From Terramyces sp. JEL0728 (taxonomy: Eukaryota > Chytridiomycota > Chytridiomycetes > Rhizophydiales > Terramycetaceae): a stretch of 64,000 nucleotides of DNA. Each line of letters opens with the position of its first letter. Position 1 is the stretch's first letter. The position numbers and the translations under genes are program-made. The notes beneath the pieces were generated by a model. That model was not told where the DNA came from and did no database searches. It saw nothing but the letters and a program-made list of their open reading frames with translations. The DNA lies in contig JADIIU010000029.1 of the NCBI GenBank assembly GCA_027603945.1, positions 1-64,000 on the forward strand, read 5' to 3'. This document shows, one piece after another, positions 1 to 49,210 of this stretch.

Positions 1-1122
1 TACCTCAAGAAACAGGATATAAAATACTTGCAAAAACCAAACAATATCTATTCAGACTGCTGGAGAGATTTCAAAAAGTTGGTAATTCAACCAGCGAGCA
101 AACAGTCGGTCCTGATCGATGAGAAATTATTACATAAAGTAAACGAACTAAAATCAAATAATGTCGACACGAAACCATTTAATCCGTTTGAAAAAACCAC
201 AAGTATTTTCATTAATAGGAGCGCAGTAAAGTTGGCCGAATTGGATTACCTTTACCAATTAAAATGCTCTTCATTTGTAGACTTGTGTGGTGGTCCAGGT
301 GGATTCTCTGAATACCTAGTGTGGAAATATAAAGCCAAAGGGTACGGAATAACACTCCGAGGGAACCAGGACTACAAAATAGACACTATAAAGAAATTCT
401 ATGGGAAAGATGGCACTGGCGATATTACACGGATTGAAAATATTAAAGAATTCGTTCTTTCAGTGCCTAAAGTTGAACTAGCAGTAGCTGATGGCGGTTT
501 TAGTGTATTAAATGATGAGCGCAATCAAGAAGAACAGTCAAAGGAATTGCTATTATCTCAGATACTAGTTGCGATGCAAGTACTGGTAAAGGGAGGAACG
601 TTAGTATTGAAATTGTTTGAAACAAAGACAGTGTTTACACTTGAACTCTTGTACTTGCTGTACCTTTCATTTGACACTGTTTCAATCATTAAACCAAAAA
701 CCAGTCGGCCATGTAATTCAGAAAAGTACTTTTTTAAATTAATGCAGGTTTATTGTTTGCAAGGCATATCAAGAGTCACAAGATTTACAAAAGTATTTGG
801 AAAAAGTGCTTGCAGAATTCAGTAAATTGAAGCAACAACTCTTGCCGATAAAATCTGGCCACAAGCACCATCAAAGCGGATACATTCCTTACGACGAAAA
901 GATTGAATTACAGCTAAACGATGTAAACGAGATTTTAGACTGGAAGATTATTGAAAAGGACGAAAAGTTTGTTGATTACATAGAGAATTACAATTTGACG
1001 TAAGTGGTGTTGATTCTAGGTCGTTGATAAAGCTAAAGAAAGCGCTTGAATGCAAGGAGGTTGTCGATCAAGAATACATTGGGCAGAGGATTTGTCAAAC
1101 GTTTGGGATACCATTCAAATAA
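1..1122 (+). CDS. CMTR1: Cap-specific mRNA 2'-O-methyltransferase 1-like, 5' partial
   Basis: Transfers methyl from SAM to the 2'-O of the first transcribed nucleotide of capped mRNA in the nucleus. Three exons (1-725, 748-999, 1020-1122) are joined across 22- and 20-nt introns; the visible coding part is 359 residues. The reading frame is open at base 1, so the N-terminus lies upstream. The FtsJ/RrmJ fold shows a glycine-rich SAM loop (VDLCGGPGGFSE) and a K-D-K-E type tetrad: K in RSAVKL, D in AVADGG, K in LVLKLF and E in NSEKFIVCK. The last motif appears only after the first intron is removed, which supports the splice. The carboxyl part (LQKYLEKVLAEF onward) matches the CMTR1 tail. Any upstream G-patch domain is outside the window. 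The family call is secure; I chose CMTR1 over CMTR2 on motif spacing. Confidence 0.85.
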
Positions 1123-1208
1123 TATTTATCATTGCAATTTGCTTTCAATTGTGGATCTATGTCTATTTCAAACTGCCTGTCTTCTGGTTATGACTAGCTT
1201 TATCTTAT

Positions 1209-2264
1209 TTATTGGAAAACAAAAAAGGTGTTGGCAAACGAGTGGAATGTCCCACAAGATTGAGCATTTGGGCAAGTTTTGGCCCAAGATTTGCCAATAG
1301 TGCCTGCCGCAGTGTCTTGTTCAAAAGTCTGATGTTGGAAAAACAAGTCAGTGTTGCCATAAGCATTGAGAACAACAGAAGAAGTGGTGGAAACTGAACC
1401 AATCTGATTGAAAGGAGTATTCGGAGAAGGTGAAGCCCACACAGTCCACAATTCAGTGCCAGCTGGAATACTAGTCAAGGCTGCAAGAGATCTATAGGCA
1501 TCGCTCGGGTCGGTCTTTGGAATTGCCTCTGCTACCACTTGTTTCGCAACATCAGTTGGACGGAAAATTAATTGGAATGGATAAACTGGCTTGGATACAT
1601 TACTTCCGTCTGCTTCTTTTGCAGATACCCCAGACAACCCAGTAAAAACTGGCCAGTTAGATGCTTTACCAAATGTACGTAGCAATATCCCGCCAGCAAT
1701 GGCACCACCTTCCTTTGGAGAAATATGATTGGAAAACCCATTCGCGAAAAAGTTTAAATCGTCTTGTCCATCGATTCCCAGCATGAAAAAGATGTTTGTT
1801 GATGGGTTGTCATCCCTAAAGAATTTGATTGCCGCACCAGGAACAATGGAATTTGAGTTTGCACTCGGTTGAGCAGCAAGCGACAATCTAAGAATTGCAT
1901 TGTCGGCTCCTTGGAAAAGACCAGTGTATGGATTTTGCACTGCATTGAATTTTACCTGAGCTACAGCGCCAGCAGCATGTACCCTTTTCTGCCTGCGTGA
2001 AGATGAAAATATTCCTTTTTCAATTGGTAATTCGTCAGACACTGTGTCTATTGTAGGTTGCATACTTTCTACGAATATTAACTCGAAATTAGAGTAGCTG
2101 TATGATGAAGATATTGCTGGGCTGGATGCTATCTCTGACCATACTTGTGCCAGTTGAGTAGATGCTGAAGTATTCTGGAATACGGTTTCTCCCCGTTTGT
2201 GCAGGTTGGCGTATGGGCATGGGGTTGACAAAGCAACCGAAGCGAGAATTGCCAGTTTATTCAT
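1209..2264 (-). CDS. Secreted catalase-like protein 1
   Basis: A single exon of 351 residues starting at the ATG at 2264, chosen because it opens with a signal peptide (MNKLAILASVALS). The middle resembles the catalase core: a VHAAGAVA stretch carrying the candidate catalytic His, then AILRLSLAA, PGAAIKFFRD and STNIFFML, parallel to the catalase RFST, GFAVKFY and NNTPVFF strands with the distal Asn kept. It is shorter than classical catalases, and I do not see the proximal heme-ligand Tyr motif (RxxxY), so peroxide dismutation is not assured. A Cys-containing tail (TCPNAQSCGT) may form a disulfide. A paralogue lies immediately upstream on the same strand. The fold assignment is from pattern recognition; function is inferred. 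Confidence 0.65.
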   Translation of the reverse strand: MNKLAILASVALSTPCPYANLHKRGETVFQNTSASTQLAQVWSEIASSPAISSSYSYSNFELIFVESMQPTIDTVSDELPIEKGIFSSSRRQKRVHAAGAVAQVKFNAVQNPYTGLFQGADNAILRLSLAAQPSANSNSIVPGAAIKFFRDDNPSTNIFFMLGIDGQDDLNFFANGFSNHISPKEGGAIAGGILLRTFGKASNWPVFTGLSGVSAKEADGSNVSKPVYPFQLIFRPTDVAKQVVAEAIPKTDPSDAYRSLAALTSIPAGTELWTVWASPSPNTPFNQIGSVSTTSSVVLNAYGNTDLFFQHQTFEQDTAAGTIGKSWAKTCPNAQSCGTFHSFANTFFVFQ

Positions 2265-2448: not shown

Positions 2449-3501
2449 TTATTGAAAAACGCAGTTGTTGTTGGCAAGCGAGTGACATGTAACGCAAGAT
2501 TGAGCGTTAGGGCAAGTAGTAGCCCATGATTCGCCAACAGTACCTGCCGCAGTGTCTTGTTCAAAAGTCTGATGTTGGAAGAACAAGTCAGTGTTGCCAT
2601 AGTCATTAAGGACAACGTTAGATTTAGTAGAGATGGATCCGATTTGGCTGAAAGGAGCGTTTGGAGAAGGCGAAGCCCACACAGTCCACAATTCAGTACC
2701 AGCAGCAAGACCAGTAAGAGCCTTGAGAGATCTGTAAATATCGCTAGAAGCAGTGTTTGGTAAACTGGCAGCAAGAGCCTGCTGAGCAGCAGTTGTAGGA
2801 CGCATAACTACTTGGAACGGATACACTGGTGACGAAACAGAGTTACCAGCAGCATCGAACCTTGCGACTCTATTGAGCCCGGTGAAGACGGGCCAGTTCG
2901 ATGCTTTTCCAAAAGTATGCAATAAAAGTCCACCAGCAATGGCACCACCTTCCTTTGGAGAAATATGGTTAGAAAAATTGTGTGTGAAAAAGTTTGGATC
3001 ATTGTTTTGTCCATCAATACCCAGCATGAAAAAGATATTGGCAGATGGCTGGTTTTGGATAAAGAATTTCATTGCAGCGCCTGGAACGATGGTTGAGGTG
3101 GATGGAGCGTTTGCAAGTGAGAATCTGAGGATGGCATCTTGGGCTCCTTGGAATAAACCAGTGTATGGGTTTCCTGGGAGAGCGTCAAAGGAAGCTTGGA
3201 CAACGGCACCAGCAGCATGGACTTCCTTTTGTCTCTTTGAAGAACTGAAAACACCTTTGACAATCGGTAATTCATCAGATGCTGCATCGACAGTTGGATG
3301 CATATCCTCTGTTGCTACAAGTCCAAGCACATTGTAGGTGAAAGAAGATGGATTTGCCGGGCTGCTGTTGATTTCCGACCATACTTGCTGTAATTGAGCG
3401 TGGGAAGACTGCGCAGTTACTGTTTCTCCTCTTTTAGCCAAGTGAGAATACGGACATGGGTTGGCAAGGGCAAATGCTGCAACGGCGACAAACTTGAACA
3501 T
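2449..3501 (-). CDS. Secreted catalase-like protein 2
   Basis: A single exon of 350 residues, tandem paralogue of the gene at 1209-2264. The ATG at 3501 is followed by a short signal peptide (MFKFVAVAAFALANP). The same catalase-core landmarks are present (VHAAGAVVQ, AILRFSLAN, PGAAMKFF, SANIFFML, HISPKEGGAIAGG). The tail has extra cysteines (TTCPNAQSCVTCHS). No proximal heme Tyr motif is evident. A TATAAATT-like box on the coding strand lies at 3540-3547, about 40 nt before the start. Two adjacent similar secreted genes point to local duplication and probably an extracellular redox or lipid-peroxide role, but that is inference. Confidence 0.65.
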   Translation of the reverse strand: MFKFVAVAAFALANPCPYSHLAKRGETVTAQSSHAQLQQVWSEINSSPANPSSFTYNVLGLVATEDMHPTVDAASDELPIVKGVFSSSKRQKEVHAAGAVVQASFDALPGNPYTGLFQGAQDAILRFSLANAPSTSTIVPGAAMKFFIQNQPSANIFFMLGIDGQNNDPNFFTHNFSNHISPKEGGAIAGGLLLHTFGKASNWPVFTGLNRVARFDAAGNSVSSPVYPFQVVMRPTTAAQQALAASLPNTASSDIYRSLKALTGLAAGTELWTVWASPSPNAPFSQIGSISTKSNVVLNDYGNTDLFFQHQTFEQDTAAGTVGESWATTCPNAQSCVTCHSLANNNCVFQ

Positions 3502-3547: not shown

Positions 3548-3573
3548 CTTTGAAAATCTGCCCCTGATCATCC

Positions 3574-3659
3574 AAAATTGGCATTGGGCATTGGAAACGG
3601 CTCGTCAATTGAAGGACCTTACGTCCGAAGTGGAAAAACCAATGCCCAATGCCAATTTT
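3574..3659. repeat. Inverted repeat, 21-bp perfect arms, 44-nt loop
   Basis: The left arm is 3574-3594 and the right arm 3639-3659. The right arm is the exact reverse complement of the left, whose core is GGCATTGGGCATTGG. The arms contain a short internal direct repeat (GGCATT/GGGCATT). The element sits 73 bp or more upstream of the catalase-like 2 ATG, so it could be a regulator-binding palindrome, a hairpin in an RNA, or the remnant of a small mobile element. Confidence 0.75.
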
Positions 3660-3896
3660 ATACTGCCAAACAGAAATGCTAAGCCTTTGGAATAATCAAC
3701 CAAGCGGCAAAAGTATCCTTGCAAGGATGCCATATTAATTTCACGCCTACTCAACAGCGCCAAGATTCCAGTTGCAGACCTGAAAAACTGAAACCCAAGA
3801 CTATGGAACATTGCAATTAGCTTTGACATATGCTATTTATTACCTCACAAATCAAACTACTGTCAAGAACTCAAACTAGTAACTGGACAGATTAAA

Positions 3897-7936: not shown

Positions 7937-9107
7937 ATGATGAGCGACGATATTACATCTGTGGTGATTGACAATGGATCTGGAATGGTCAAGGCTGGCT
8001 TTGCGGGAGAAGACGCTCCTCGTACAGTGTTTCCTTCCATAGTGGGCAGACCCCGCCATCAATCAATTATGGTTGGTTTCGGCCAAAAAGACACGTATAT
8101 CGGTGATGAAGCTCAGTCAAAACGTGGTATCCTGTCTCTAAATTATCCCATTGAACACGGTATTGTAGGCAATTGGGATGACATGGAAAAAATATGGTAA
8201 TTATTCGGTAATATAGGCATCATACGTATTATAATGAGCTGCGAGTGGCACCTGAAGAACATCCAGTGATGTTAACAGAAGCAGCTTTCAACCCGAAAGC
8301 AAACAGAGAAAAAATGACGCAGATCATGTTTGAAACATTCAATACTCCTGCGTTCTATGTGTCTATTCAGGCTGTCTTGTCATTGTATGCATCTGGTAGA
8401 ACTACAGGCATCGTCCTTGATTCAGGCGACGGTGTATCCCACATTGTACCAATTTATGAAGGGCATTACGTAAATCATTATTAATCAAGCTGCCCCATGC
8501 CGTTCAAAGATTGGATCTTGCAGGAAGAGATTTGACTGCCAACCTTTGCAGATTACTGACTTTGCGTGGCCATGGGTTTACCACTTCGTCCGAAAAGGAA
8601 ATTGTTCGAGATATCAAGGAGAAACTATGCTATGTGGCATTGGATTATAGCCAAGATCTCGTTACTAGTGCTCAATCATCATCCATTGAAAAGACTTATG
8701 AATTACCCGATGGCCAAGTTATTTCAATTGGAGACGAACGATTCAAAGCACCTGAAGCACTGTTTGACCCTTCAATCCTTGGAAAGGAAGCTCAGGGCAT
8801 TCATCAATCACTCTACACTGCTATTCAAAAGTGTGATGTGGATATTCGTCGCGAATTGTATTCTAACATCATCCTGTCTGGTGGGTCAACAATGTATCCA
8901 GGTATTGCTGATAGAATCACCAAAGAAATGACAACGATGGCGCCGTCCAGCATGAAAATCAGGGTAGTAGCTCCGCCAGAAAGAAAATACTCTGTATGGA
9001 TTGGTGGAAGTATATTAGCTTCCTTGTCAACCTTCCAAGAAATGTGGGTGTCTAAACAAGAATACGATGAATGCGGTCCATCGATCGTACACAGAAAATG
9101 TTTCTAA
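7937..9107 (+). CDS. act1: Actin
   Basis: Three exons (7937-8196, 8217-8469, 8490-9107) separated by two 20-nt introns give a 376-residue conventional actin, the usual length. Diagnostic motifs are [20 protein letters not shown] at the N-terminus, [11 protein letters not shown], the first-intron join restoring [20 protein letters not shown], the ATP-binding [14 protein letters not shown], then [22 protein letters not shown], and the end PSIVHRKCF. The second intron ends AAG rather than TAG, and its removal gives EGHYLPHAVQ with exact family spacing. Actin forms the filaments used in motility, cytokinesis and endocytosis. Both introns interrupt codons or frames that are otherwise invariant, so this gene is the best internal proof of the 20-nt intron rule. 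Confidence 0.97.
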
Positions 9108-10662: not shown

Positions 10663-11618
10663 TTATTCGTAGGAGGAGTAGAATTGAACAATTACATCCC
10701 AAGCTTCCTCTGCAGTCTCGACGATTTTAAACAAACCAAGATCTTCCAAAGCAATAACCCCTTCGTCAACCAGCAAGTCAAAATTGATCAGTTTGGACCA
10801 GAAATCCTTTCCAAACAAAACAATTGGAATAGGAGCCATTTTCTTTGTTTGAACCAGAGTAAGAGCTTCAAACAATTCATCCAGTGTGCCAAATCCTCCA
10901 GGAAATGCTACCAATGCTTTTGCTCTGTTCAAAAAGTGCATTTTTCTCTAATATTAAAGATTCATACGATTGAGAAATAATGGAAATTGAAGCAATATTC
11001 AGGACTGATATATGGATTAGGTCTTTGCTCGAATGGGAGCACGATATTCAACCCTACAGTCTTTGCTCCAACATTTCTGGATCCTTTTGGGGCTGCTTCC
11101 ATGATTCCTGGACCTCCTCCAGTACAAATAACACCCAACTCTGCATGTTTACCAACAATTTCACCAAACAATTCCGCTTCCTTAAAGTATTTGCTTGAAC
11201 TTGACCGATTTTTGTAAACATTAAGCTCGCGCAAACCAATCTTCCCAGCATCAAATTCTTTTTGTTTCACCTCAAGCTCCTTTCTAGCTGATACAGCATC
11301 TTTTATCCTTGCTCCTCCAAAAACCACGATTGTATGTTCGATCCCACCTTCGTGTAGTAATTTGTCGCATTTTTGGTACTCTAGTTGTAATCGAGCATGT
11401 CGCATGTCTTCACGCAGTAAGAAATCGTTTCCAGCAAATGCTAATTCGTAAACCGGAGATTTAGTTTGAGCACAAGGGGTATCGATTGTACTCAAACGAA
11501 GTGCTTCTTTTGGAGTGTGGAATGCGGTATGATTGTGGAAAGCTTTCTTTAGTTTGAGTACTAGATGCGCAATGTTTGCAAACCCGTCGGTCTTTTGTTT
11601 CTTTTCTGGTGGAGCCAT
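10663..11618 (-). CDS. LOG-family (TIGR00730-type) Rossmann protein
   Basis: Two exons (11618-10968, 10947-10663) over a 20-nt intron give 311 residues. The LOG/lysine-decarboxylase-like signature PGGFGTLDE (about residue 233) sits just after the intron, preceded by [11 protein letters not shown] (about residue 168). The join yields [20 protein letters not shown], the expected family sequence. Plant LOG enzymes release free cytokinins from nucleotide monophosphates; related proteins are nucleotide 5'-monophosphate nucleosidases. This protein carries an N-terminal extension of about 100 residues, lysine-rich at the start ([12 protein letters not shown]), relative to the short LOG form. The exact substrate is unknown. 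Confidence 0.85.
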
Positions 11619-12072
11619 TTTTGAAAGTTTTATGGAAGGAAATTCTGAGCGTGTTCATTGGTATTTGAATTTCAAAATTTCGATCGGTACAGGTTCAAAG
11701 TTAGTGGTTTAATCCCAACCTAAGCCTATTTCAAATATTGGTCTTCAAATTTAAAGATCAAACTTTCAGAGCGCAGTATAGTAACATGCCCGTGTCGATC
11801 CATGGCAAGATACTGTTGCGGTACTGATCTTGTCTTCTGCTCCGAACGTGTTGGAATGGGCCACCAACGTTTTCTAAGCAGGAACAGCATCCAAATACAC
11901 TAAATTGTCCGCTTAGGCTTGTATACTTTATTAAATTGTATTGGGCTAGGATATATATTTGTTGATTAAAGAATATTTCGGGTTTGTGTGTAGCAACCAA
12001 CTATAATCAGTGCACAGCTAGAAACGTTTATCAACGGAAGAGTATAAATTTAAGCGTTAGGGAAAGGTATTA
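11619..12072. other. Intergenic, divergent promoters
   Basis: 454 bp between the divergent LOG-family and first phosphoesterase genes. It has a TATA-like box at 12043-12050 for the latter. An 80-codon minus-strand frame starts at TTG, not ATG, and is not supported. Confidence 0.5.
12043..12050 (+). promoter_or_regulatory. TATA-like box of phosphoesterase 1
   Basis: TATAAATT lies 23-30 nt before the ATG at 12073. Confidence 0.4.
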
Positions 12073-13490
12073 ATGCTGGATCTCTCAAAACGGGTGGGCT
12101 ATGTTCTCCTGACTCTTCTTTTAATATTATCTACTATTTTGGCAGTCGCATTAATTACTCATCAAAATTCGATCAGTGATGCTACGGAAACACCAACTAA
12201 CCACACATCAACCGCTACAAACTCTGCAGTACCGCAAAGTACTTTTATTCCGTCTCCAACTTTGCCAGTAATTATCACCTTAAACGATACTGACAAAGTA
12301 TCGGATAAAATCAAACATGTCGTTGTATTAATGCTGGAAAATCGTTCTTTTGATTCATTTTTAGGCAGTTTGAAATTCGATGGATGGCCGCAAGTTAATG
12401 GTTTGACAGGTGAAGAGACGAATACTCTACAAGATGGCACAATTGCAAAAGTTAGGCCAGTCAATTCAGATGTAGAGCATCACGATCCAAGTATTTTTTT
12501 CTAATCCCAGACCATTCAGTTGATTCAGTAACTATGCAGATATATGGGGGGAAAGGAAGTGTCTACGGGAAAACACCAACCATGAATGGGTTTGCTCTGG
12601 ACGATTTGACTTTGGTTGGTAGACAAACCACTTTGAATGAGGCAATTGGTGTTACTTTTGGATACCACACTCAAGAGACGATCCCAGTCGCGTATTCAAT
12701 TGCCAATGATTTTTCCTTAATAGATGATTATTATGCTTCCGTTCCTGGGCCGACATTTCCAAATAGACATTTCTTACATTGCGCAACCGCATTAGGCATG
12801 ACTGATAACACAGAATTGGCAGACGGCCTTGATTGCAAAACAATCTATGGCAAACTAACTGAAAAGGACATTTCTTGGAAAGTCTACTCTAAAGATGCTC
12901 ATCCTACTGTTTTCAGGTACAAGGAAATGCGACAGGCGTCCTATTCAAGTAATGTGCTGACGTTTGATCAATTCCTGCAAGATGCTAAACAGGGAGCTTT
13001 GCCAGAGTTTACCTACTTGGATCCAGACATGGACCATGGGGATTATCATCCACCGTACAATACTATTGGCGGAGAAGCATATTTGAAACAGGTTTACGAT
13101 GCAATACGAAACAGTCCTGCTTGGAACGAAACACTATTATTCATCACATTTGACGAGCACGGCGGGTTCTATGACCACGTCCCACCTCCAACAAATGTGC
13201 CGATTCCAGATAACTCTAACGTTTATCCAGCAAGTGGAGATTTTGCATTTGAAAGGCTAGGTGTTCGTGTTCCTGCGATACTTGTTTCTCCTTGGATCCC
13301 AAAAGGAAAGATATTCCGATCCGTATTCCCTGATAGATATTTTGAACACTCTAGTGTTGCAGCTACATTGAAAAAGTTTTTTGGCTGGGATGGATTCCTG
13401 ACTAGGCGTGATGCTAGTGCAGTGTCATTCCATGCTGCTGTAAACTACCTGCGTGAACCAAGAACTGACTGCATTTCTGCAGCTGGCTGA
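12073..13490 (+). CDS. Phosphoesterase-family (acid phosphatase / phospholipase C type) 1
   Basis: Two exons (12073-12490, 12511-13490) over a 20-nt intron give 465 residues. The N-terminus has a hydrophobic anchor (about residues 9-28, YVLLTLLLILSTILAVALI) followed by a Ser/Thr/Asn-rich stalk, so the enzyme is secreted or a type II membrane protein. The catalytic domain has the PF04185 landmarks VVVLMLENRSFDSF, VPGPTFPNRHF, ITFDEHGGFYDHVPPP, GVRVPAILVSPW and FEHSSVAATLKKFFG, which carry the metal ligands and nucleophile region. Members hydrolyse phosphomonoesters or phospholipid headgroups; I cannot choose between them. First of three tandem paralogues, suggesting phosphate scavenging or host/prey lipid use. 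Confidence 0.88.
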
Positions 13491-13703
13491 TTCTATTTAG
13501 CAACTAATAAATGGTGTGGATGGCACGTTTTTTGGATTATCCAAGAAAACAGGAGATGGCAATTCCGTTCGAGAGATGCCGCTCCGACTATTGGCAATTC
13601 CGCATAAATGGGTTTTAATAAGACGCAATTTCGGAGATTGATGGCTACTGCTGTGGCTATGTGTTGGAGTGGCATATATTCACTGATCAAATAAAAAAAG
13701 TTC

Positions 13704-17018: not shown

Positions 17019-18148
17019 TTAAAATTCATCATCAGATATTACTTCATCAACAACACTCACCGGCTCTTCCTGTACACTAAACAATGGCGTAGATCCACTT
17101 GTAATGGCACTAATATCACTAAAGAACTGGTCCACTTCTGCTTTATCTTTACAGTAGAAACCTACAACCATCGAAGGGTCCATTTGGTTAATGGGTAAAA
17201 ACAAGACTCTGTCACAATGGTAGCTATAAAAATCTTGCTTTTGGTATGAATTCAAGTCCATTATTGGCACACCTGGATTAATCTCTTTTACATTGCTTTT
17301 TGAAATGTGGGTCATAGTAGATTAAATTGTTTTGCTGGTATCCAGTGAAATAAAGCGACGAATTCGGTCTTCCGCCAGCTATTCCGACACATGATTTGAT
17401 GCTAAAGCAAGCCTAGGTTAAAAAAAGAGTACTTTGATGAGTGGGTAATAAAGTGGATTCAAGTCCTCCACTCCTAATCGTAGAGAAACAAGAACCAGTA
17501 GCGATTTATCTTTAATGTCATTGTACACTTGTTTCTTGTATAGTATACTATCTTGCGATACGTGTATATTCAATTGCGATTGTTTATCTTCCTGTACGAG
17601 GACTTTTAATACATGCGATATAGTCAATGGCCCGAACCATTCCCCTACTTGTTTATCAAACTGTTTTCCTTCCAGCGCAATTCTGTGTATTGAATAAACA
17701 GCAGTTGGAGAATCAATGAATTTCGTTACTAACTCGGCATATCTAATCCAATCACCACTTTCAATCTGATATATTCTCCAATCTCTTCCAAATTCGTGGT
17801 ACATTAGCGCCATTACAAGCATCATTTGTCCCGATCTTAGCATACACCCCCATCCAGAGTCGCAAGTGTATGAATTTGGCTCGATTGGAGGAAACCCGTC
17901 CCTATAAGTAAGCCAAATCCTAGTCTGAAAGTCTACATCAACCAAAAAGAACCTTCCAGAAAATCAATATCTATTGAGGGGTATTTTTTCCCCAGGAATA
18001 TTAGTTCGCCGCCAGTTGAAGTAGCAGATGGGTGGATTACAAATCGAAGCAAGTCTCTTGGCGAATCCATTTGCGACAATTGCTCCTTTGCTTTCTGCAT
18101 AAAGAAAGTTAATCCGTCTTGAAATTTTTTAAATAGATTGTCCTGCAT
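17019..18148 (-). CDS. ATG4: Autophagy cysteine protease Atg4
   Basis: Four exons (18148-17953, 17932-17433, 17412-17292, 17272-17019) with introns of 20, 20 and 19 nt give 356 residues. Peptidase C54 motifs: catalytic Cys in [12 protein letters not shown], the [13 protein letters not shown] strand, and the Asp-Pro-His of [11 protein letters not shown], followed by [20 protein letters not shown]. The last intron splits codons right after the DPH motif and its removal is needed to keep frame. Atg4 trims the C-terminus of Atg8 to expose glycine for lipidation and later delipidates it. The acidic end (EVISDDEF) may be an Atg8-interacting tail, which is inference. Confidence 0.93.
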
Positions 18149-19284: not shown

Positions 19285-22200
19285 ATGATCGAGCAAATTG
19301 CCAGTTTCCTTTCAGCAACTCTGGATCCAAAAGGTAGAAAACAAGGTAATCCGTTACTGATTTAGCCGAGCAGCAATTAGCCCAAATTGAAAAACAGCCT
19401 GGATTTGCCCCAATCCTTTTACAGCTCATTTCAGATGGAAATTGTGATTACAATGTCAGATTTGCAGCATCAGTTTACTTTAAAAACTATGTAAAGAGAG
19501 CATGGACTGTAGATTCCGAAGATTTGATTTCGCCTCAAGATAGAGAAGGGATTAAACAAGTCATTGTCAATCTAATGATTTCAGTGCCTACCAATATGCA
19601 ATTGCAACTGAGTGACTCTATTTCATGCATTGCAGATACTGACTTTCCTCAAAATTGGACTTCTCTTTTAGGAGACTTGGTCAGTAAATTATCAGTCACT
19701 GATTTACAAGTAAATATTGGTGTATTACAAACCGCACATTCAATTTTTAAAAGATGGAGATCGCAGTTTGAAAACAATACCCTGTTTACTGAAATCAATT
19801 ATGTAATGAAGGAATTCTCGCCTGCCTACCTCCAATTTTACCAAGCCATTGATTCCCTTGTTGACCAGAATGCAAATAACCCGCAAGTTGCCGTATTGTT
19901 GGAAACTGTGCTGTTGCTCAACAAGATCTACTTTAGCTTGAACTGCCAAGATTTACCAGAATTTTTTGAAGACAATATGACTGTATTCATGGCATTCTTC
20001 CAAAAATACTTGGAATACAAAAACCCTAACGTGCAAACTGTAAGTATCTTTTTAATTTAGGATGACGAAGCCAGTGTTGTTGAAAAAATCAAATCTGTAA
20101 TTTGTGAAATCCTTATTTTATACGGAGACAAGTACGAATCTGATTTCAAAGCGCTTCCGCAATTCGTTCAAAATGTTTGGACCCTATTGATAAACACTGG
20201 TATTGAACCAAAGAATGATATCCTCGTCAGTAAAGCGATTGCTTTCTTGACATCTGTTGTTAAGCATGAACGGCACAAAGCTTTGTTTGAAGCGCCTGAT
20301 ACGCTTAACAGCATTTGCAGTCGCATCATTTTACCAAACATGTACTTGCGTGAATCTGATGAAGAGCTCTTTGAAGATGATCCAATTGAATATATTAGAA
20401 GAGATTTGGAAGGATCCGATTCCGATACCCGAAGAAGAGCTTCTGCTGATTTGGTTCGTGGGCTGATGAAGCTGTTTGAAAAGACTGTCACTGAAATCTT
20501 TTCTGCTCACATTCAAGAATGTCTAGCTGTAATATTTATCTAAGTTAGAATTACCAAAAAGATCCAGCAACCAACTGGAAAGCAAAGGATACTGCATTAT
20601 TCTTGATTACATCTCTTTCTGCGAAAACTATTACTGCACAGGCTGGCGCTACTTCAATCAACGAATTTATTCAAATTCTTCCTGTCTTTGCGGAACACGT
20701 CAATCCAGATTTAGTGGCAGCAGTTGATGGACAGGTCCACCCAATCATCAAAGTAGACGCCATCAAATATTTGATGCTGTTCAGAAGCCAGCTTAACAAA
20801 CAACAGCTACTTCAAGTGCTACCAATATTGGCAAATCACTTGGGATCTTCAAACTATGTTGTGAACACCTGGACTGCACATTGTATCGAAAGAATCTTGG
20901 CAATGAAGGAAGGAGCTGTTCCAATGTTCAGTGGTGTTGATATCGAAGCAATTACGCAGCCAACTTTACAAAGATTATTTGAAATTATCCAAAGAGGAAA
21001 AACTCCTGAAAAGTTGGCCGAAAATGACTACTTGATCAAGTGTATCCTTCGTATTATTGTTACCACCAAGGAATCATTGCTCAATCACGTCACACTTGTT
21101 TTGGAAAGATTGACTTTTATAATTGGGCAAATTTCAAAGAACCCAAGTAACCCCAAGTTCAACCACTATGCATTTGAAAGTCTGTCTGCGCTAGTAAAGT
21201 ACGTGTGTGTTCAACAGCCATCCCTTGTTACCAGCTTTGAAAGCTCTTTGTTTGGTCCTATCCAAGAAATTCTTGCACTTGATGTAGTTGGTAATTAAAT
21301 TTAATTTAGAATTCACTCCATATTGCTTCCAAATTCTTTCCCAAATGTTGTCTTTACACAGCGATGGCATTCCAGATGCATACATGCATATTCTTGGCCC
21401 GTTACTTCAACCAGCTGCGTGGGAATCCCATGCAAATATCCCTGCTCTTGTCAATTTGTTGAATGCATTTTTGGCAAAGGGATCTGCAAATTTGATTAGA
21501 AACGGGCAAGTTGCAGCCTTCTTGGGTATTGCTTCCAAATTGCTTTCTTCGAGAATGAATGATCACCATGGCTTCAATCTGTTCAAATCAATCTTTGAAC
21601 ATATTCCAACGTAATTTTGATTTCATTTTAGGGCCGATTTGTCCCAATATGTTAAAAATGTGTTTGTTTTGTTACTGACTAGAATCTTCCAGTCCAAAAC
21701 TCCTAAATTTACCAGATGCTTCTTGGACTTTATGTGCTTTTTGTTTTTGTTGGACAAACCAGGAGTAACCATCGACAACTACATCTCCATTATTGACTCT
21801 ATCCAGCAAAAGTAAATCTTGCATTAATTGTAGCCCATTATTCGGAGGTTTACTTGAAAGCATCTTGATTCCAGAGGTTGAACTTGTCTCTGCACCACAA
21901 GCACGAAAGAATACCGCGATCGCCTTAGTAAAGTTATTAACCCAATCCGAAGCCATGGTTAATCAGTACTTTTCTCTATGGTCAAAGTTACTTGTTGCAA
22001 TTTTGAATCTCTTCCAACTCCCGGCTCACACTGTAACTGCTGAAGAAACTGACTTGGTTGCTGATTTAGAAGAAGCAGGATACCAGCCATCTTACTCTAG
22101 ATTAGCTTCTGGTGCAGTAAAGAAGCAAGATTTGAATATCGACCCTGAGACATATCTATGTACCAGCTTGATTGCACTTGGTCAAAAACAGCCAAAGATA

Positions 22201-22310: not shown

Positions 22311-23665
22311 TTAAAGGATTTCTAGATCAATATGTTTGACTTCTGGTCTTTTTTCTCTGATCACCAGCTCAATTCTATCGATTTCTCGCCCTACAAAGTT
22401 GAGCAGCTCTGAGCTTTGATTAACCAGCCAATCCTTGACTTCCTGGTCTGACCTGCACTCTTTCAACAATTCGATATCGAGAGAAACGCGGTGTGGGTGC
22501 ATTTCTTGATATTTTCTTGCTAGCTTCTCTGCATCAAACATGATTTCCGCTACATTACTAATAGTTACCCTTGAATCTAGCCCAATCCGGTCCGATACTT
22601 GTTGATTTGACATCATGGACAGATTTTATCACTGGATCTTGAACAATCAAATTTACAATTTCATTTTCCTTTTCTTTGTCCATTCTTGTTTGTATGAGGC
22701 CATTAATATTCCTTCTCACCAGCCAAATTGCAACTGAGGATAGCAGCACTCCAATGGCGATTGATCCAACAGAGTCGAGCCAAGGAATCAAAAATAGCTT
22801 AGAAGCAGATAAGCAGGTGCCTGCAATCAAGATCCCCATTAGCGCGGCTGAATCTTCCATGAAGACTTGGACAGAAGTTGGATCCGCTCCATTCTTCAAG
22901 AATTCAAAGAATGAAAGTCCCTTTTCTCTTGCTGTCTTTTTAATATGACTAAAGGCAACTGTAAGAGTGGCTGGATAAGTATTAACTGGTACCTGCTTCA
23001 AAAAGAAAACATCCACCTAGTGCCATGAATGCTGGCTGTAAGTCATGCAGTACATGACCACCCGCAATCAAACCACTGATTCCATGATATAAAGTTACTC
23101 CCCCTCCCAAAAAGAACACACCTACCCCGCTTACCAATGCCCACGCGTATTTCTCTGTCATGTACCCATAAGGATGGTCTAAATCCGGCCGTTTTATCGA
23201 CCTCCACAACCCATACATCAACAAACTATATCAATTGAAAATTACCTTTCATTCAATACGTCTGCCAAAGAGTGCATACTTTCAAATAGTTAATAGATTA
23301 TTTACCTACGTGAATAGGGATATACCTGCATACATTGACGCTGAACCAGATGACAAAGCACCGTAGAGTTTAGCTGAAAACATAATTAAATTTGAAGTCA
23401 TTGCCAGCAACACAATTTTTTTGGTTCCTTGCAACTTTGACTCCAATTCGATAGTTTGATTCTCAATTATCGGCTGCTTCCTAAGCTGTTTTATTTTCGA
23501 CTTTAGTAATCCCAAATCATCTTCTGGCGGGGTAATAACCTGCTTTAATGAAGTTGAATATTTGAAATGATGCTGTAACTGCGAATATTTAGTTTGTGAA
23601 TACGGAATCGATAGCCTTGCGGATAATTTAAGGTGTGAAGTGAAGCTTGGTTTGAACCTCAACAT
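22311..23665 (-). CDS. SLC30A9: Mitochondrial zinc transporter ZnT9-like (CDF family)
   Basis: Exons 23665-23326, 23282-23246, 23225-22993, 22970-22569 and 22549-22311 give 416 residues. The N-terminus (MLRFKPSFTSHLKLSARL) looks like a mitochondrial targeting peptide. CDF/ZnT9 landmarks are SGSASMYAESMHSLAD (TM2 metal site), DHPYGYMTEKYAWALVSGVG, VFMEDSAALMGILIAG, KSVHDVKS and the C-terminal EVKHIDLEIL. ZnT9 exports zinc from mitochondria. The first junction is abnormal: 43 nt (23283-23325) must be removed to give family spacing, readable as a 20-nt TAG intron directly followed by a 23-nt segment ending TTG. Other introns are 20, 22 and 19 nt. Its start codon lies 27 bp from that of the divergent phosphatase. 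A truncated copy lies at 49688-50651. Confidence 0.9.
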
Positions 23666-28433: not shown

Positions 28434-29361
28434 TTATTTCCATACTTTGATTGTATTATCAAATGAACAGGTCAGCATTTCATGTTCAAACGGATGGTAG
28501 TGGACCATGGTAACGACTTGCTCATGTGCATCTATAGTGTGAACAATTTCGCCTTCAACCAAATCCCAAATCATTACTTTTCCATCTTCACTGCCACCAA
28601 TGACATGCGAATCGTTCTTTGTCAAGCATGGGACGAGCCTGTATTCTTGGTTCTTGTGTCCACGATAATCGTTGAGCAGCTCTCCAGTCTCCACGTCAAA
28701 CAGTCTAATCACATTATCCAGGGTATTCACCAACATGCAATTCTTGTCATTCGACAGTCCGCAATACGTAATTGGGAATCCCACATTGTCTATTACGACT
28801 TTTCTCGTTCTGATGTCGTAAACTCTTACGTGACCATCAACTGAGCCTGACAGTATCTGATATTCTTCCATTTTTACCCACTCCACACTATCTTTTGCCT
28901 CACTGAGAGTCTGAACTGGTCGTTTTGACAGCGAACGGCAATCCCATATCCTAACTGTTGCATCATATGAACCAGATCTACATTAGTGGATTTTTCACAT
29001 TATAATTTGACCTTCCTTGTTGAAATCTACTGCATTAACTCTCTGGGTATGGTCGTGAAATCGCTGAACCGTCTTTCCAGTTGAAACGTCCCACAAGAAT
29101 ACTGAGCGATCTCCCGAACCAGAAGCAAATCTGGTATTCTCATTCAATGGTCTGGTTAATTAAAATTTACAATTGGACAGAGAGGACTTCTTTTCCGTGT
29201 CCGGTATAAGTAAATATACAAGTTTCAGTTTGAGGATTCCATAATTTAATTGACCGGTCTCCAGCGGCTGAAAGCACATATTCTCCATCGTTGCTATAAA
29301 TTGCAGAGTGAACTGGTCCGGTATGTCCTTTTAACTCACCAACTTTTTGTCTAGGAAACAT
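28434..29361 (-). CDS. WDR83: WD40-repeat protein WDR83 (MORG1)
   Basis: Three exons (29361-29171, 29151-28999, 28977-28434) over 19- and 21-nt introns give 295 residues, enough for one seven-bladed propeller. Family-specific runs are LKGHTGPVHSAIYSNDGEYV, SIKLWNPQTETCIFTYTGHG, RFASGSGDRSVFLWDV, YQILSGSVDGHVRVYDIRT, GFPITYCGLSND and YRGHKNQEYRLVPCL. WDR83 is a MAPK-pathway scaffold and a component found in spliceosomal C complexes. The second intron has a GTGAAA donor here but GTAAAA in the duplicate. Its start codon is 27 bp from that of divergent CENP-A. Confidence 0.9.
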
Positions 29362-29388
29362 TTAAAATTTTTGATTTCAAAATCTGGA

Positions 29389-29859
<471 letters not shown>

Positions 29860-29910: not shown

Positions 29911-30747
29911 TTATTCATAGACTGCACCGTAGCCTCTAATCGAATCAGCGAATCCCCATTCGGTTTCAAGAGAGTATGGTTCTGTGATATTCCATCCGCC
30001 GCTATTAATAGTAGCGCGCTGAATCTTTCATTAGATATTTGTTACTTTGTTTAGAGATCTGGCATCACGGTAGAACAACACACGCATGGCATCATCTAAA
30101 ATCTTGATTGCTTCCTGTTCAGTCAATGTATCTTCTTTTCCTTCGACTGCTTTTCTTAGCAATGGTTGTGCTATATAACTTCCATATCCTGTGGCGATTG
30201 TTGATGAGTGGTAAGTGGTTCCCTGGTAATCAACATATCCCAAGAATCTATTATTAGTAGCGTCTACTTTTCGCCCTTGCGATATCCACCGACTACCAAC
30301 GAGTTCCATAGGGGGTCATTCTTTGATCTTCTGCCATACAATACACGGGTCAAGAATTCATGAATGTGCTCTGGAAATAGCTGCTGATTATCATCGTTAT
30401 AATACTCGGTTGTACTAATTTAAAATATAGTTACATCTCCCCTTCAAGTACATGTTGAAGATGTTGCCAATCTGACATATCACCTCCAGCTCCGATAACT
30501 GTAAAGTCCCCGAATCCAGCCAATCTCTTCATATCCCTGATTTGTGCGAGAGAGCCGTAGGAAGCTATGTAAAGTCGCAAATACCTAGAGTATCAGCAGC
30601 CAACATGACACCGTCCTTGTATTTAATTCCTAAAACTGAAGTACCAGTGACAATTGGTTGCTGGGTGTGTTGAATTGGTTGATATTGCTTTATAGGCTGT
30701 CCCCAATTTGCAGGATGATGATCCACTACTGTTACATGAATAGTACT
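29911..30747 (-). CDS. PRE4: Proteasome subunit beta type-4/beta-7 (Pre4)
   Basis: Six exons (30747; 30725-30585; 30564-30435; 30414-30268; 30247-30046; 30024-29911), introns of 21, 20, 20, 20 and 21 nt, 244 residues. The A of the start codon ends the first exon and TG begins the second, so the ATG exists only after splicing; the protein then starts [16 protein letters not shown], as in yeast Pre4. Landmarks: [82 protein letters not shown]. It is a non-catalytic beta-ring subunit of the 20S proteasome. The duplicate at 56888-57724 has the same structure. Confidence 0.92.
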
Positions 30748-33675: not shown

Positions 33676-33697
33676 CAACCAGAATTTTTAATGCGGG

Positions 33698-33706
33698 CTA
33701 TTTATA
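33698..33706 (-). promoter_or_regulatory. TATA box of aspartic protease 2
   Basis: TATAAATAG on the coding strand, 23-31 nt before the ATG at 33675. Confidence 0.5.
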
Positions 33707-33918
33707 CCATATTTGCGTTTCCCATTCAGTTGTTTCATCCCAACAGAGGGGACGATGGGGGCGTTTTGGAGAGAAAAGCTAAGCCTGTGTGTCATTTATA
33801 ACAACTCGTAATGAAACTATGAGCCCAGTATACTGAGATCATTAGAAAACACAAGTGCGATACGATGCTGGGTATTAGCAGAACAAATTTCCAAAATTAA
33901 AAAAAAGTTAATCTAGAA

Positions 33919-35741: not shown

Positions 35742-35989
35742 TATATTGTATTTGATTATCAGTTATAGCCACTCAGTTGTGTTTGGTTTGAAGCTCAGTT
35801 ACTATCTTCTGCATCCCAGATTCAAATTAATTTGGGGTCGACATATTATACACAAGTATTAGTCACATTTACCAAACAGAAATGAAACTCAGACTTGGAC
35901 GCCCACCAAAGACTTGACAGCCCAACTGATCGCCACCCTCATCTATAAACAATGGAAATTAATCTGAATTTGGTGTGTAATTAGAATAA

Positions 35990-37292
35990 ATGAATAATAT
36001 TGTATTTTTGCTCTTCGGGTTGGTGATTGGTCAATGTACGAACCCGTCTGTCCGCCAGGAATGGAGACAGTTATCCAGTGACCAACAACAAGCTTATTTG
36101 GTAACCAATTTTAATTTAGAAAGCAGTTCAACAATTGAAAGCGAGACCTGCTGGCGGGACCGATCCTTCTACCTGGAATCACGATCAGTTCGCACAAACC
36201 CATTGGGATTACCAGTCAAACAACCATGGCACTCCAATGTTCTTTCCGTGGCATAGAATGTATATTCTTCAGTATGAAAAAGCTCTCAGGTCAATTGATC
36301 CATCTATCACTCTGCCTTATTGGGACTGGACTTTGGATTCCCAAAATCCAAGAGCATCCGACATTTTCCATCCGCAAAACTTTGGTGGAAATGGACAAGC
36401 TGGCAATTGTGTTCAAGACGGTGTTGCTGCAGGATGGCATTCGGTAGTTTTCAAGCCAGCATGTTTGAAACGGTGCAACGCATTCTCCACTTTATATTCT
36501 CCTGAAGCGTTGACGGGTGTAATCAACCACGCAACTTCATTCAAAGCTATCCACAGCGCAGTTGAAAATGGACCGCACGCATCTGTCCACACTCAAGTTG
36601 GTGGAGCATGCGGTGATTTTGGCAGCATGGCAAGTGCTGCAGATCCAATCTTTTTCTTGCATCATGCAATGGTGGACAAGATATGGTCAAAATGGCAAAG
36701 CGCATGTACTTCAAATGCCAAGAATTTTGAAGCTGATGTCAACAGTTCAATGCCTCCATTCAACGGGGTAGTCAATGACGTTTTTGACACTACTGGCCTT
36801 TGTTACACTTACTCATCAACTGCAGGCGATTTACCACTTTCCGTTGCTTGTCCAAACGGCAAAGCATCAAATGGCATTCCAAAACCTCCTGCGGTTGACA
36901 ATCACTGGGCTGAAGAAATGTTGCAAGCATTGATTGTAGGAGTTGATAGTCAGCGTGTTGCTTTTGTTGCGAAAAGAGATTTAGCTTCAGTGGAAGTTAA
37001 TCAGCTTCAACCCTACGATGCACAAGCTGTTCCGGAATACAGCTTGAATGAAAATTACACCGTAGCAGCACCAGCGTACAATGATCTTTCTGATTTGGTT
37101 CACATTCGTCATCCTGCTCCTATTCCAGACTACCACATCAAAATGATGCATATGAACGAAAAGCTGGTTAGAGAAACCGAATTGGTGGCAATGAAAATAA
37201 CTGACGACTACAACAACCGAGAAGGGTACTGTTCTCCGGCTGCACTGAAGCACTTTAATACTCACAACAAACTGGGACTGTATGGCCAATAA
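35990..37292 (+). CDS. Secreted tyrosinase (type-3 copper oxidase)
   Basis: Two exons (35990-36100, 36120-37292) over a 19-nt intron give 427 residues. Signal peptide MNNIVFLLFGLVIGQC. The intron falls early and its removal restores the reading frame into AVQQLKARPAGGTDP. The CuA site has FAQTHWDYQ and TPMFFPWHRMY; the CuB site has HASVHTQVGG and FFLHHAMVDKIWSKW. These bind two copper ions for phenol hydroxylation and catechol oxidation, as in melanin synthesis. A TATAAAC motif lies about 46 nt upstream. The TAA stop overlaps an AATAAA signal and is 8 nt from the stop of convergent BRCC36. Confidence 0.92.
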
Positions 37293-43136: not shown

Positions 43137-43742
43137 TTACTCGTCGTCCGAGTCCCAAGCGGAAATCTTCTTTTTAGGCTTCTGAGGGGTTTTATTGCGC
43201 TTCAATGCTGAAATCAGGAAAATCTTACCTTCATCGAGAGCATTGGAAATGGTGGTTAAATTCTCTTCATACGTTTGTTCAAACTTTTCGTCCTCTTTAA
43301 TAATAACTTTTTTAGGTTCAAAAGTCTTTAGACCTTCCTTGATTTTCTTTTCGATCTTATCTTTTTGCTGCTTTTTTCTTTCTGGTTCTTTTTCAATGTA
43401 GTCAGCCAGTCGTCTTGCCTCATCCAAGGTTTTCAATCGTCGTCCGCTCAAATCTCTGCAGGAATCGAAATTGGTAGTCTTTTGCGAAGCCATTTTCGCA
43501 CCTTTGGCTTTCAATACACTCCCAAACCCTCCTTTTCCTCCGAGTGTGGGAATATTGATTTTCAAAAAGTGCGGGAAGCCAGTGTCAGTGATTTCTGTTG
43601 CCTTGAAGTTGTTGGACTGCAACAATTGGAAATCATCAATTCCAAACTTTTCTTGTACAATTTCTTCCAGTTCACTTACTGTGATATCGGCAAATAAGAA
43701 ACTGTGGTTTTGATTCAAGTGCTTGACATATATTTGCAACAT
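43137..43742 (-). CDS. SDE2: SDE2-like splicing/replication regulator
   Basis: 201 residues if unspliced, 194 if the probable in-frame 21-nt intron 43208-43228 is removed. The N-terminal ubiquitin-like fold (MLQIYVKHLNQNHSFL, VQEKFGIDDFQLLQ) ends at the processing motif GGKGGFGS, followed by the conserved CRDLSGRRLKTLDEARRLADY and a charged helical region. In fission yeast the Ubl is cleaved by Ubp5/Ubp15 and the freed Lys-starting Sde2 enters the spliceosome to help excise particular introns. The intron retained would simply add seven residues, so retention would be silent. Diverges from the CUE gene; 32 bp from the rotatin stop. Confidence 0.88.
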   Translation of the reverse strand: MLQIYVKHLNQNHSFLFADITVSELEEIVQEKFGIDDFQLLQSNNFKATEITDTGFPHFLKINIPTLGGKGGFGSVLKAKGAKMASQKTTNFDSCRDLSGRRLKTLDEARRLADYIEKEPERKKQQKDKIEKKIKEGLKTFEPKKVIIKEDEKFEQTYEENLTTISNALDEGKIFLISALKRNKTPQKPKKKISAWDSDDE

Positions 43743-47190: not shown

Positions 47191-47239
47191 TCAAAATTTC
47201 AGCTGTTTGCACAAAGGAACAATTTTCACACAAACAAAC

Positions 47240-49210
47240 ATGGAATCTACAAAATTCAAAGTTTCGGTGATTACAGTAAGTGACAGAGTTTCAAGGGGAG
47301 AAGCAGTTGATAAGAGCGGGCCTTCATTGTGCGAATGGTTGAGAAATTCTGGGAAATACATTATCCGAAAGCAAAATGTGGTGCCAGATGAACCCAAAGA
47401 GATACTGAAAGCTTTGAAAGATAACTTGGATGTTGATTTGATACTTACTAGTGGAGGTACAGGATTCGGCGTGCGGGATATTACGCCGGAAGTAGTTCGT
47501 GGTTTTGTAGATAAAGAAGCTCCGGGATTTACAATCGCAATGATCACTAGCTCATTGAATATTACGCCATTAGCTGCTTTATCACGACCAGTTTGTGGTG
47601 TCAAACAAAATACACTTATAATCACTTTACCTGGATCATCAAAAGGTGCTTTGGAAAATATTTCAGCTTTACAGACTGTTATCCCCCATGCATTAGAATT
47701 AGTGAGAGGCGAAAGGAATGCAGGTGAATCATTTCATAAAAGCATTGGGGTTGCACATTCATGTGTTCATCATCACTCACACGAAAAAATAGAAGGCGAA
47801 TTATCAAACGACCCAAGCGCTCCAGGTATTTATAAGGTAACGCTAGTTACAAAACGTGCAAGAATATCTCGTTTCCCAATGATCGAATATAATGAAGCAC
47901 TGTCTACTGTGATTGCAGAAACTGAACGGATTGCTCAACTTGAAGAAATGCCTGTTTCAGAAAAACTTGTTGGCTACACAGTTGCGCAAGTAAATATATA
48001 TTAACATGGGATGTCGTTTCGAAAGCATCCGTTCCAGCATTCCGCGCATCAATTGTAGATGGATACGCTGTGAAAAGTACTGGCGGAACAGGCACATTCA
48101 AAGTTCAATCTGAGGTGATTGCTGGAGATATTAATTCGAGTGAATTGAAAGATGGTTATATCATCAGGATTACCACTGGCGCTCCAGTTCCAAATGGTGC
48201 CGATGCAGTCGTTATGGTCGAAGACACTAAGCTAATCAGTTCTGACGGAGATAGAGAGCTGGAAGTTGAAATTTCAGGCAAAATTGTAGATGGTCAAAAC
48301 ATTAGGCCAATTGGAAGTGATATTGCTTTGGGAGAAGCACTTCTAAGGAAGGGCCATAGGATCACCTCCATTGGTGGTGAAATTGGAATGCTTACAAGTG
48401 GAGGTGTACAGAAGGTAAAAGTTATTCGAAAGCCTATTGTTGCTATTCTCTCGACTGGCAATGAATTATACGACAGTTCAACTGCCAAAGATTTGAAATT
48501 TGGTGCTGTAAGAGATGCAAATAGGCCAACTCTAAAAGCTGCCCTTACGCGATCTGGCTATGAAGTGTTAGATCTGGGAATTCAATCTGATAATGTCCCT
48601 GGATTAGTGGATATATTGAAAAAAGGCTTGGAAAAAGCTGATCTGATTATCACTACTGGCGGGGTTTCTATGGGAGAAAAGGACTTGCTTAAACCTGTAT
48701 TGGAAAGGTATTTGAAGGCAACGATTCACTTTGGAAGAGTAAATTTAAAACCCGGGTAAATTTGCAATTTAATCAAGAAAACCGACTACTTTTGCCACCC
48801 TTCTAAATGAGCAACGAGTAAAAAAAAGCGTCTTTTCTTTGCCAGGCAACCCTGTATCAGCTCTTGGTATCACCCTAATTAATCCAAGTTACATTCTACT
48901 TGTTTGTATTGCCAGCATTAAAGAAAATGTCTGGAATGGAAGATATAAAACACCCAGCGTTGAAAGTAAAAGTAAATGATCAATAACAAAGATTTCTCAT
49001 GATATTTCTTTGGATTCACGGCCAGAATTTCATCGAGCAGAGATTAAACTCAAGGGAAGTGAGTGGGTTGCATCCGGAACTGGAAATCAAATAAGCAGCA
49101 GGATAAGTAGTTTCTTGAACGCAAATGGCTTGTTGAAACTTCCAAGTTCAAATGAAAAAAAAGTAATCAAAGCAGGAGAGTACGTGGAAGCATATCTCTT
49201 GGAAATTTAA
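47240..49210 (+). CDS. Molybdenum cofactor synthesis fusion MogA-MoeA (gephyrin-like)
   Basis: Five exons (47240-47989, 48010-48755, 48778-48866, 48889-48971, 48992-49210) give 628 residues. The N-terminal MogA/G domain (ITVSDRVSRGEAVDKSGP, TSGGTGFGVRDITPE) adenylates molybdopterin; the C-terminal MoeA/E domain (SIVDGYAV, TGAPVPNGADAVVMVEDT, LSTGNEL, TTGGVSMGEKD) inserts molybdate. A His-rich linker lies between (HSCVHHHSHEK). Order G-then-E matches gephyrin. Intron 1 ends TGG, not AG, yet is the only split giving DVVSKASVPAFRASIVDGYA. Splices 3 and 4 restore GNPVSALVTFYLFVLPALKK. An upstream in-frame ATG at 47117 would overlap the TVP38 start, so 47240 is preferred. Confidence 0.92.

Follow-up and report, generated by a model that had tools for sequence, protein, structure and literature searches.

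Uniform introns of about 20 nucleotides in the genome of the chytrid fungus Terramyces sp. JEL0728

Genes and introns of the window

This study of the very short introns of Terramyces sp. JEL0728, a chytrid, starts from one stretch of its genome, the window, which comprises the 64,000 nucleotides (nt) of contig JADIIU010000029.1 from position 1. Terramyces is a free-living saprobe, and sp. JEL0728 belongs to the Chytridiomycota (Rhizophydiales, Terramycetaceae), with a genome assembly of 15.0 Mb in 231 contigs. The end of the window, 49741..64000 (+), is a direct duplicate of 22755-37043 with the same introns, and the gene counts given here are for positions 1-49210. An initial annotation, made from the sequence letters alone, had placed about 65 introns in this part, with a modal length of 20 nt and mostly beginning GTA. 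That description held up well: gene models of at least 450 coding nt, with introns of 14-30 nt allowed, yielded 63 introns of 18-24 nt, 59/63 of them starting GTA, and the commonest length was 20 nt (24 introns), followed by 21 nt (15), 19 nt (11), 22 nt (7), and 18 and 24 nt (3 each).

Eleven genes of the window, with 31 introns in models that allowed lengths of 14-26 nt, were aligned to Pfam, PDB or homologues. All 31 introns break the reading frame if kept, and at the exact coding junctions we found the GT start and AG end of U2-type introns. The aligned stretches enclose 25/31 introns, with lengths of 19 nt (3), 20 nt (14), 21 nt (4) and 22 nt (4); outside them fall two JAB/MPN introns, the tyrosinase intron, one cation-efflux intron and two MoeA introns. 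When segments of 12-400 nt were allowed with no length preference, one or both of two runs again called 19/25 of the aligned introns (15 per run).

The actin gene provides the simplest case. It carries two 20-nt introns, GTAATTATTCGGTAATATAG at 8197..8216 (+) and GTAAATCATTATTAATCAAG at 8470..8489 (+), and the spliced product aligns with cytoplasmic actin without a gap over residues 2-376 (375 residues). CSE1 has seven exons at 19252-22290 (+), and from residue 12 to the end its product is identical to a 960-amino-acid Terramyces sp. JEL0728 protein at NCBI (P0001). Its six introns lie at 19346..19365 (20 nt), 20040..20060 (21 nt), 20529..20548 (20 nt), 21291..21309 (19 nt), 21611..21631 (21 nt) and 21812..21833 (22 nt). 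Compared with 16 homologues, used of 119 others listed, the junctions of introns 3, 4 and 5 are gap-free within ten residues in 16/16; of the remaining junctions, one has a two-residue insertion nearby in 3/16, that of intron 6 adjoins a one-residue gap in 9/16, and that of intron 2 falls in a variable loop of the protein. A CENP-A-like histone gene at 29389-29859 (+), whose best solved match is S. pombe Cnp1, has three introns of 20 nt (29471..29490, 29592..29611 and 29743..29762), and its product aligns with residues 9-130 of Cnp1.

The other aligned introns lie within matches to conserved domains. On the minus strand, a lysine-decarboxylase-like (LOG-type) gene has a 20-nt intron at 10948..10967 within its match to Pfam PF03641, and ATG4 has introns of 20 nt at 17933..17952 (uncalled in both runs without length preference), 20 nt at 17413..17432 and 19 nt at 17273..17291, all within the Peptidase_C54 match. 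Also on this strand, the Pfam match of the cation-efflux gene holds a 22-nt intron at 22971..22992 (of equal length in the duplicate; uncalled) and a 20-nt intron at 23226..23245, also present in the duplicate copy. The beta-propeller match of a WD40 gene (-) holds a 21-nt intron at 28978..28998, which begins GTG here and GTA in the duplicate, and a 19-nt intron at 29152..29170 that is again duplicated, both uncalled. In a proteasome beta subunit gene (-), introns of 21 nt at 30025..30045 (uncalled) and of 20 nt at 30248..30267, 30415..30434 and 30565..30584 interrupt the Pfam Proteasome match. Finally, the MoCF_biosynth match of MoeA (gephyrin E-like) on the plus strand contains 22-nt introns at 48756..48777 (uncalled) and 48867..48888. 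The earlier assertion that splicing restores conserved motifs exactly thus stands for actin, CENP-A, CSE1 and the MoCF_biosynth domain of MoeA; for BRCC36 it is unconfirmed, both JAB/MPN introns being outside the aligned stretch. A 25-nt segment of MoeA at 48013-48037 and other models of 24 to 26 nt have weak motifs, lie outside aligned protein and are probably wrong.

Intron lengths across the genome

Length counts were made on 299,210 bases, consisting of positions 1-49210 of the window and 25 stretches of 10 kb from elsewhere in the genome. No gene model entered the main count, in which we scored, on both strands, each GTA with a YTRAY branch-like motif downstream and an AG 1-6 nt beyond that motif. 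At 18, 19, 20, 21 and 22 nt this motif occurred 35, 102, 119, 73 and 30 times, against a baseline of 27.7 per length (standard deviation (s.d.) 5.4) over 30-400 nt. The 19-21 nt class numbered 294, compared with 77.8 (s.d. 7.2, maximum 96) in 20 fourth-order Markov simulations. Above 22 nt there was no second cluster up to 400 nt; outside the peak, single lengths with z>3 were 35, 158 and 295 nt, all isolated. Among nine control first triplets, 7/9 gave no rise in the count. AGT gave 52 at 20 nt and 49 at 21 nt versus 31.1 (s.d. 5.5), and ATG gave 54 at 22 nt versus 34.0 (s.d. 5.7); we read these small rises as the same introns counted from 1-2 exon bases upstream.

Gene finding led to the same lengths. 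When all lengths of 12-120 nt were given equal prior weight, with scores for four donor and three acceptor positions but none for the branch, the frame required 327 introns, of which 209/327 were of 19, 20, 21 or 22 nt (60, 97, 35 and 17, respectively), and no other length exceeded 8. The site weights of these self-trained models came from motif seeds of 18-23 nt, and for this reason we added a run that used end dinucleotides only, with a constant intron cost. Here GT-AG gave 50/112 introns at 19-21 nt, or 32/63 at a stricter cost, and 9/10 decoy end pairs gave 1-11 (of 81-112). The TA-GA decoy gave 21/106, a surplus that we read as true introns shifted by one base. Codon-only gene finding with a constant intron cost failed to discriminate on the window alone (21 introns for GT-AG, 18-23 for eight decoys), so that we had to turn to motif counts and to models trained on a larger amount of sequence. 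A high gene-start cost produced long false introns that bridged neighbouring genes.

We thus confirmed that the length observation is real and holds genome-wide on the 299 kb sampled, and it is sharper than first stated. Of the range of 18-24 nt originally given, the short lengths are real but the excess is narrower, at 19-21 nt with a small tail, and the 24- to 26-nt models of the window look weak. Nearly all introns cluster, to within a few nt, around a single length of less than about 25 nt, as in the ultra-short, uniform classes described elsewhere. Intron density was about 1.6 per kb of coding sequence, or 2.0 per model of at least 450 nt, and 139/183 gene models had at least one intron. 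Scaled to the genome, the number of introns would be about 11,000 from the motif excess and about 18,600 from gene models, both being rough figures; the removable segments thus look to number in the thousands, nearly all of 19-21 nt.

We make no claim of selection against introns divisible by three, as the motif-only counts place 21 nt simply between 20 and 22 nt. That 55/73 introns of 21 nt have an in-frame stop is not taken as selection either, because stop-free ones are harder to detect.

Intron architecture

Two sets of introns were used to describe anatomy: 265 introns of 19-22 nt, picked without a branch term and without scoring positions +5 or +6, and a fuller set of 371 introns of 18-23 nt from a model that scored the 3' end. 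In the 265, the 5' site has A at +3 (0.91) and +4 (0.60) and T at +5 (0.50) and +6 (0.62), positions +3 to +6 holding 2.66 bits of information; G at +5 occurs in only 41/265. YTRAY is present in 184/265; in 162 of these its A precedes the exon by 5-6 nt (92 and 70 introns, respectively), with 0-9 introns at each other distance. The TAAY/TRAY motif first noticed near the intron end is therefore not only present but sharply placed. Measured from the 5' end, this branch A is at intron nt 14-15 in 148/162.

In the fuller set the branch A is at nt 14-15 in 287/351 introns and 5-6 nt before the exon in 308/351, and a clear branch site is lacking in 20/371. The upstream exon tends to end AG (A 0.49, G 0.50), and the introns end TAG (238), CAG (95), AAG (37) or GAG (1). 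The overall layout is exon AG / GTAATT, a short T-leaning spacer, YTAAY, a few nt ending YAG, exon. The branch site is complementary to GUAGUA of U2, as expected of U2-type introns: 162/265 introns have a positioned YTRAY, and the U2 small nuclear RNA (snRNA) of Terramyces contains GTAGTA. The typical fungal branch type is CTRAY-like. U12-type introns have a long conserved 5' site and a TCCTTAAC-like branch site; the GTAATT and YTAAY consensus does not suggest this type, though no search aimed at U12-type introns was made.

Divergence in a 14-kb duplication

The two copies of the duplicated unit of about 14.3 kb lie on one contig, 27 kb apart, and are 98.7% identical over 14,294 alignment columns. 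Either the segment was duplicated recently, or two haplotypes were joined in the assembly. Modelled introns differ between copies at 12/432 sites (2.8%), and codon positions 1, 2 and 3 differ at 20/3742 (0.53%), 10/3740 (0.27%) and 80/3739 (2.1%), respectively, such that introns change faster than codon positions 1-2. In all 21 introns mapped in both copies (two of them weak 24- and 26-nt models), length, GT and AG are kept, and the sole change at +3 is GTG to GTA. There are no gap columns in introns and 24 in the remaining sequence.

Splicing machinery

The initial annotation had suggested comparing the U2AF, SF1 and U1/U2 snRNA genes with those of other fungi. SF1, U2AF65, U2AF35 and the U2 snRNA are all encoded in Terramyces. 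The U2 snRNA was found at 140 bits with its branch-pairing GTAGTA intact. SF1 has an RW motif before its first domain; in other species this motif binds U2AF65. U2AF65 aligns with the solved U2AF65 RRM1-RRM2 structure and has an N-terminal YWD motif. U2AF35 matches S. pombe U2AF23 in four pieces, and by eye it can be read as five exons separated by three GT-AG introns of 19 nt and one GC-AG intron of 22 nt. An automatic model of U2AF35 (a 99-amino-acid piece) was mis-modelled, with a spurious intron. The proposal that the sites are crowded, with little room for separate binding, is right geometrically, but the early recognition proteins have not been lost.

Several further observations were made on these genes. 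The GC-AG intron of 22 nt, read by eye, directly follows the U2AF35 start (locus L040, minus strand, about 780-759) and has a TTAAC branch site. In U2AF65 (locus L039), a 33-nt in-frame stretch after QAKATG is absent from the Boothiomyces protein (P0121) and could be either a coding insertion or a longer GC-AG intron. The U2AF65 model of Boothiomyces macroporosus (578 amino acids) also carries Pfam PF17136, which we take to be ribosomal L24, and is probably two neighbouring genes fused by annotation. Two U6 candidates (L030 and L031; 27.4 and 26.9 bits) fell below the gathering score and, being near-identical copies of apparent coding sequence, were discarded. The window also contains an intronless homologue of the splicing regulator SDE2 at 43137-43742 (-), which matches Pfam PF22782 and has a GGKGG sequence at the usual cleavage position; its presence raises the question of which of the tiny introns of this genome it acts on.

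Discussion

We favor the view that these segments are ordinary U2-type spliceosomal introns which have shrunk genome-wide to a working minimum of 19-21 nt, and would assign this a probability of roughly 0.92 on the sequence evidence. That they are spliceosomal introns, as initially proposed, is supported by the GT-AG ends, the U2-complementary branch motif, the proteins restored by their removal and the intron-like divergence between the duplicate copies, and the genome is fungal.

There are also observations that weigh against this interpretation. In both runs without length preference, 6/25 aligned introns were swapped for longer segments, although these would remove protein covered by Pfam matches. 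All four bins above 30 nt were about 6% above simulation, without a peak (for 201-400 nt, 5490 versus 5185.8, s.d. 117.7); we read this surplus as composition, but it is also compatible with a thin class of longer introns. Between the duplicate copies, non-modelled sequence differs less (27/2602, 1.0%) than introns (2.8%) or third codon positions (2.1%), so 'neutral' is a rough word for the introns. The best piece of U2AF65, at 251.7 bits, scores below the family cut-off of 310.3, which may be because the match is exon-wise. Lastly, U1 and U6 snRNA were not found in the genome by an Rfam model, a gapped pattern, 3-mismatch patterns or a DNA query, searches that had no positive control and so do not show absence; introns may split the U6 gene, or the assembly may lack it.

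Alternative explanations differ greatly in how well they accommodate these data. The idea that there are two intron classes, one of 20 nt and a normal, longer class missed by our motif, draws on the scattered segments of 30-400 nt also used by flat-prior gene finders, on the excess beyond 30 nt and on the 33-nt stretch of U2AF65. We nevertheless consider it unlikely, given the lack of any cluster above 22 and up to 400 nt, the isolation of the 35-, 158- and 295-nt lengths, and the finding that the long segments compared by eye either run across the space between genes or have one end in common with an intron of 20 to 22 nt by which conserved residues are retained. The conserved-gene check is no test of this idea because its models allowed only 14-26 nt. 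If, alternatively, the segments stayed in the mRNA and the ribosome skipped or shifted over them (translational bypassing), most of the observed lengths (19, 20 and 22 nt) would be suitable in not being multiples of three. Against this, an in-frame stop would be met on reading through in 112/155 of the 20-nt and 55/93 of the 19-nt introns, and the GT-AG ends, the near-fixed U2-type branch motif, the matching GTAGTA of U2 and the 3'-site proteins fit splicing and have no role in bypassing, which we regard as highly improbable. Hardest of all to credit is that the peak is an artefact of reading frames forced through sequencing errors or pseudogenes. Self-training of the gene models on the Terramyces genome from 18-23 nt motif seeds could be cited in its favor, but the peak is present without any reading frame and without a trained motif, is lost for decoy ends, one-base shadows aside, and involves introns that both duplicate copies hold and that yield a CSE1 protein identical to that of NCBI.

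A different kind of alternative grants splicing and questions novelty, namely that tiny introns are a shared and ordinary trait of Rhizophydiales or Terramycetaceae, present in public gene models though not in searchable papers. Annotated CSE1 proteins exist in Globomyces (968 amino acids) and Gorgonomyces (960 amino acids), and at least one NCBI model of Terramyces, that of CSE1, already splices these introns; two scans of genome and viral collections found no corresponding loci of relatives. We give this an even chance. The underlying data are thus already public, as the CSE1 model demonstrates, while a description of them was not found. Our literature search, beyond whose reach most subscription papers lay, returned no report of such introns in a chytrid or similar fungus, and the portion of a survey of 644 fungal genomes available to us does not mention them (PMC8476143).

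Returning to minimal U2-type introns, a plausible scenario is that each is recognised as one unit. U1 would contact mostly GTA and the last exon bases, and the missing +5 G suggests that its pairing is weak. SF1 would read YTAAY, and U2AF35 would read the AG just downstream. The 4-5 nt that separate the branch A from the final G are too few for a polypyrimidine tract, and U2AF65 is therefore probably recruited and held through contacts with SF1 and U2AF35 and not by the RNA. U1 and SF1 would have to leave before U6 and U2 pair, an exchange in which about 6 nt at the 5' end would suffice for U6 and 5 nt at the branch for U2, so that some 5 nt would remain as a tether. This could explain the narrow range of lengths: in shorter introns the tether would break or the sites would run together, and longer ones would have been trimmed or would miss the branch-to-AG spacing.

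The published comparisons that follow rest on portions of the cited papers and hold to that extent. The likeness to nucleomorphs and ciliates drawn initially is apt, and the mikrocytid parasites should be added to it. Bigelowiella natans, whose chlorarachniophyte nucleomorph has more than 800 introns of 18-21 nt (PMC10245619), resembles Terramyces in its narrow range of lengths and its many introns. However, the nucleomorph is a reduced endosymbiont nucleus, in which 5' sites mostly consist of no more than GT(A) and introns show no branch-point signature (PMC2483917), whereas Terramyces is a fungus with a clear and near-fixed branch site. Paramecium (about 25 nt) likewise has short, numerous introns with a weak 5' site, but, like dicyemids and B. 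natans, no branch-point signature (PMC2483917), and the sharp YTRAY peak sets Terramyces apart from short-intron genomes of this type. In the heterotrich ciliate Stentor coeruleus, introns are of 15-16 nt with the branch A at nt 10 or 11, the commonest starts GUAAUU, and both U2AF subunits are listed (PMC9505925). Stentor therefore shares with Terramyces uniform tiny introns, a near-fixed branch A and +5 U, but its introns are shorter and their branch region is without a strong consensus, where Terramyces keeps YTAAY. The mikrocytids Mikrocytos mackini and Paramikrocytos canceri have highly uniform introns of near-single length, 16-17 nt (PMC10245619). M. mackini is a parasite with 224 introns and 17-19 identified spliceosomal proteins, in contrast to the roughly 11,000-19,000 introns (a rough figure), SF1 and both U2AF subunits of Terramyces.

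Typical fungal introns, for example those of Cryptococcus neoformans with a mean of 63 bp, are about three times as long as those of Terramyces, GT-AG being common to both. To our knowledge, very short introns have otherwise been described in the fungal lineage only from microsporidia. Encephalitozoon cuniculi has a conserved branch site, CTAAYTT (PMC2483917), but differs from Terramyces in having few introns, a mean length of 35.8 nt and a conserved 5' site. In two species of Chytridiomycota, each kb of coding sequence carries a mean of 3.93 introns (PMC8476143), compared with about 1.6 here. Branch position has been described as constrained in a subset of intron-poor genomes, and intron-rich genomes as having variable 3' sequences (PMC2483917). 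As these groups are described there, Terramyces fits neither, though a fixed branch position is partly expected because a length of 20 nt alone leaves the branch little room to move.

A more specific and tentative proposal, which we think possible rather than probable, is that an intron-rich fungus locked its introns into an architecture with a fixed ruler, the branch A standing 14-15 nt from the 5' site and 5-6 nt from the exon, while keeping SF1, U2AF and degenerate sites of the intron-rich type; the lost +5 G may be matched by changes in U1 or U6 that would explain why standard models missed both. If true, this would break the pattern, as reported in the part of that work consulted, of a fixed branch position going with intron-poor genomes (PMC2483917).

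The introns of Terramyces add a new fungal example to the ultra-short, uniform class, of which they are also a variant. With it a fungus joins the few lineages whose introns have collapsed to a minimum, while keeping the usual proteins of 3'-site recognition, and provides a test of how little sequence the splicing machine needs. Chytrids are nearer than nucleomorphs or ciliates to the model yeasts, and structures of the yeast spliceosome could therefore be used to examine the minimum length, the tether from 5' site to branch and whether a polypyrimidine tract is required. On the practical side, gene finders with the usual minimum intron length will misread such genomes.

Other features of the window

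By eye, 1209-2264 and 2449-3501 (-) appear to be tandem paralogues encoding two similar secreted-looking proteins, and beside the latter gene there is an imperfect inverted repeat at about 3570-3660 with arms around CCAAAATTGGCATTGGGCATTGG. Three phosphoesterase-like genes in a row at 12073-16922 (+), similarly noted by eye, are also tandem paralogues.

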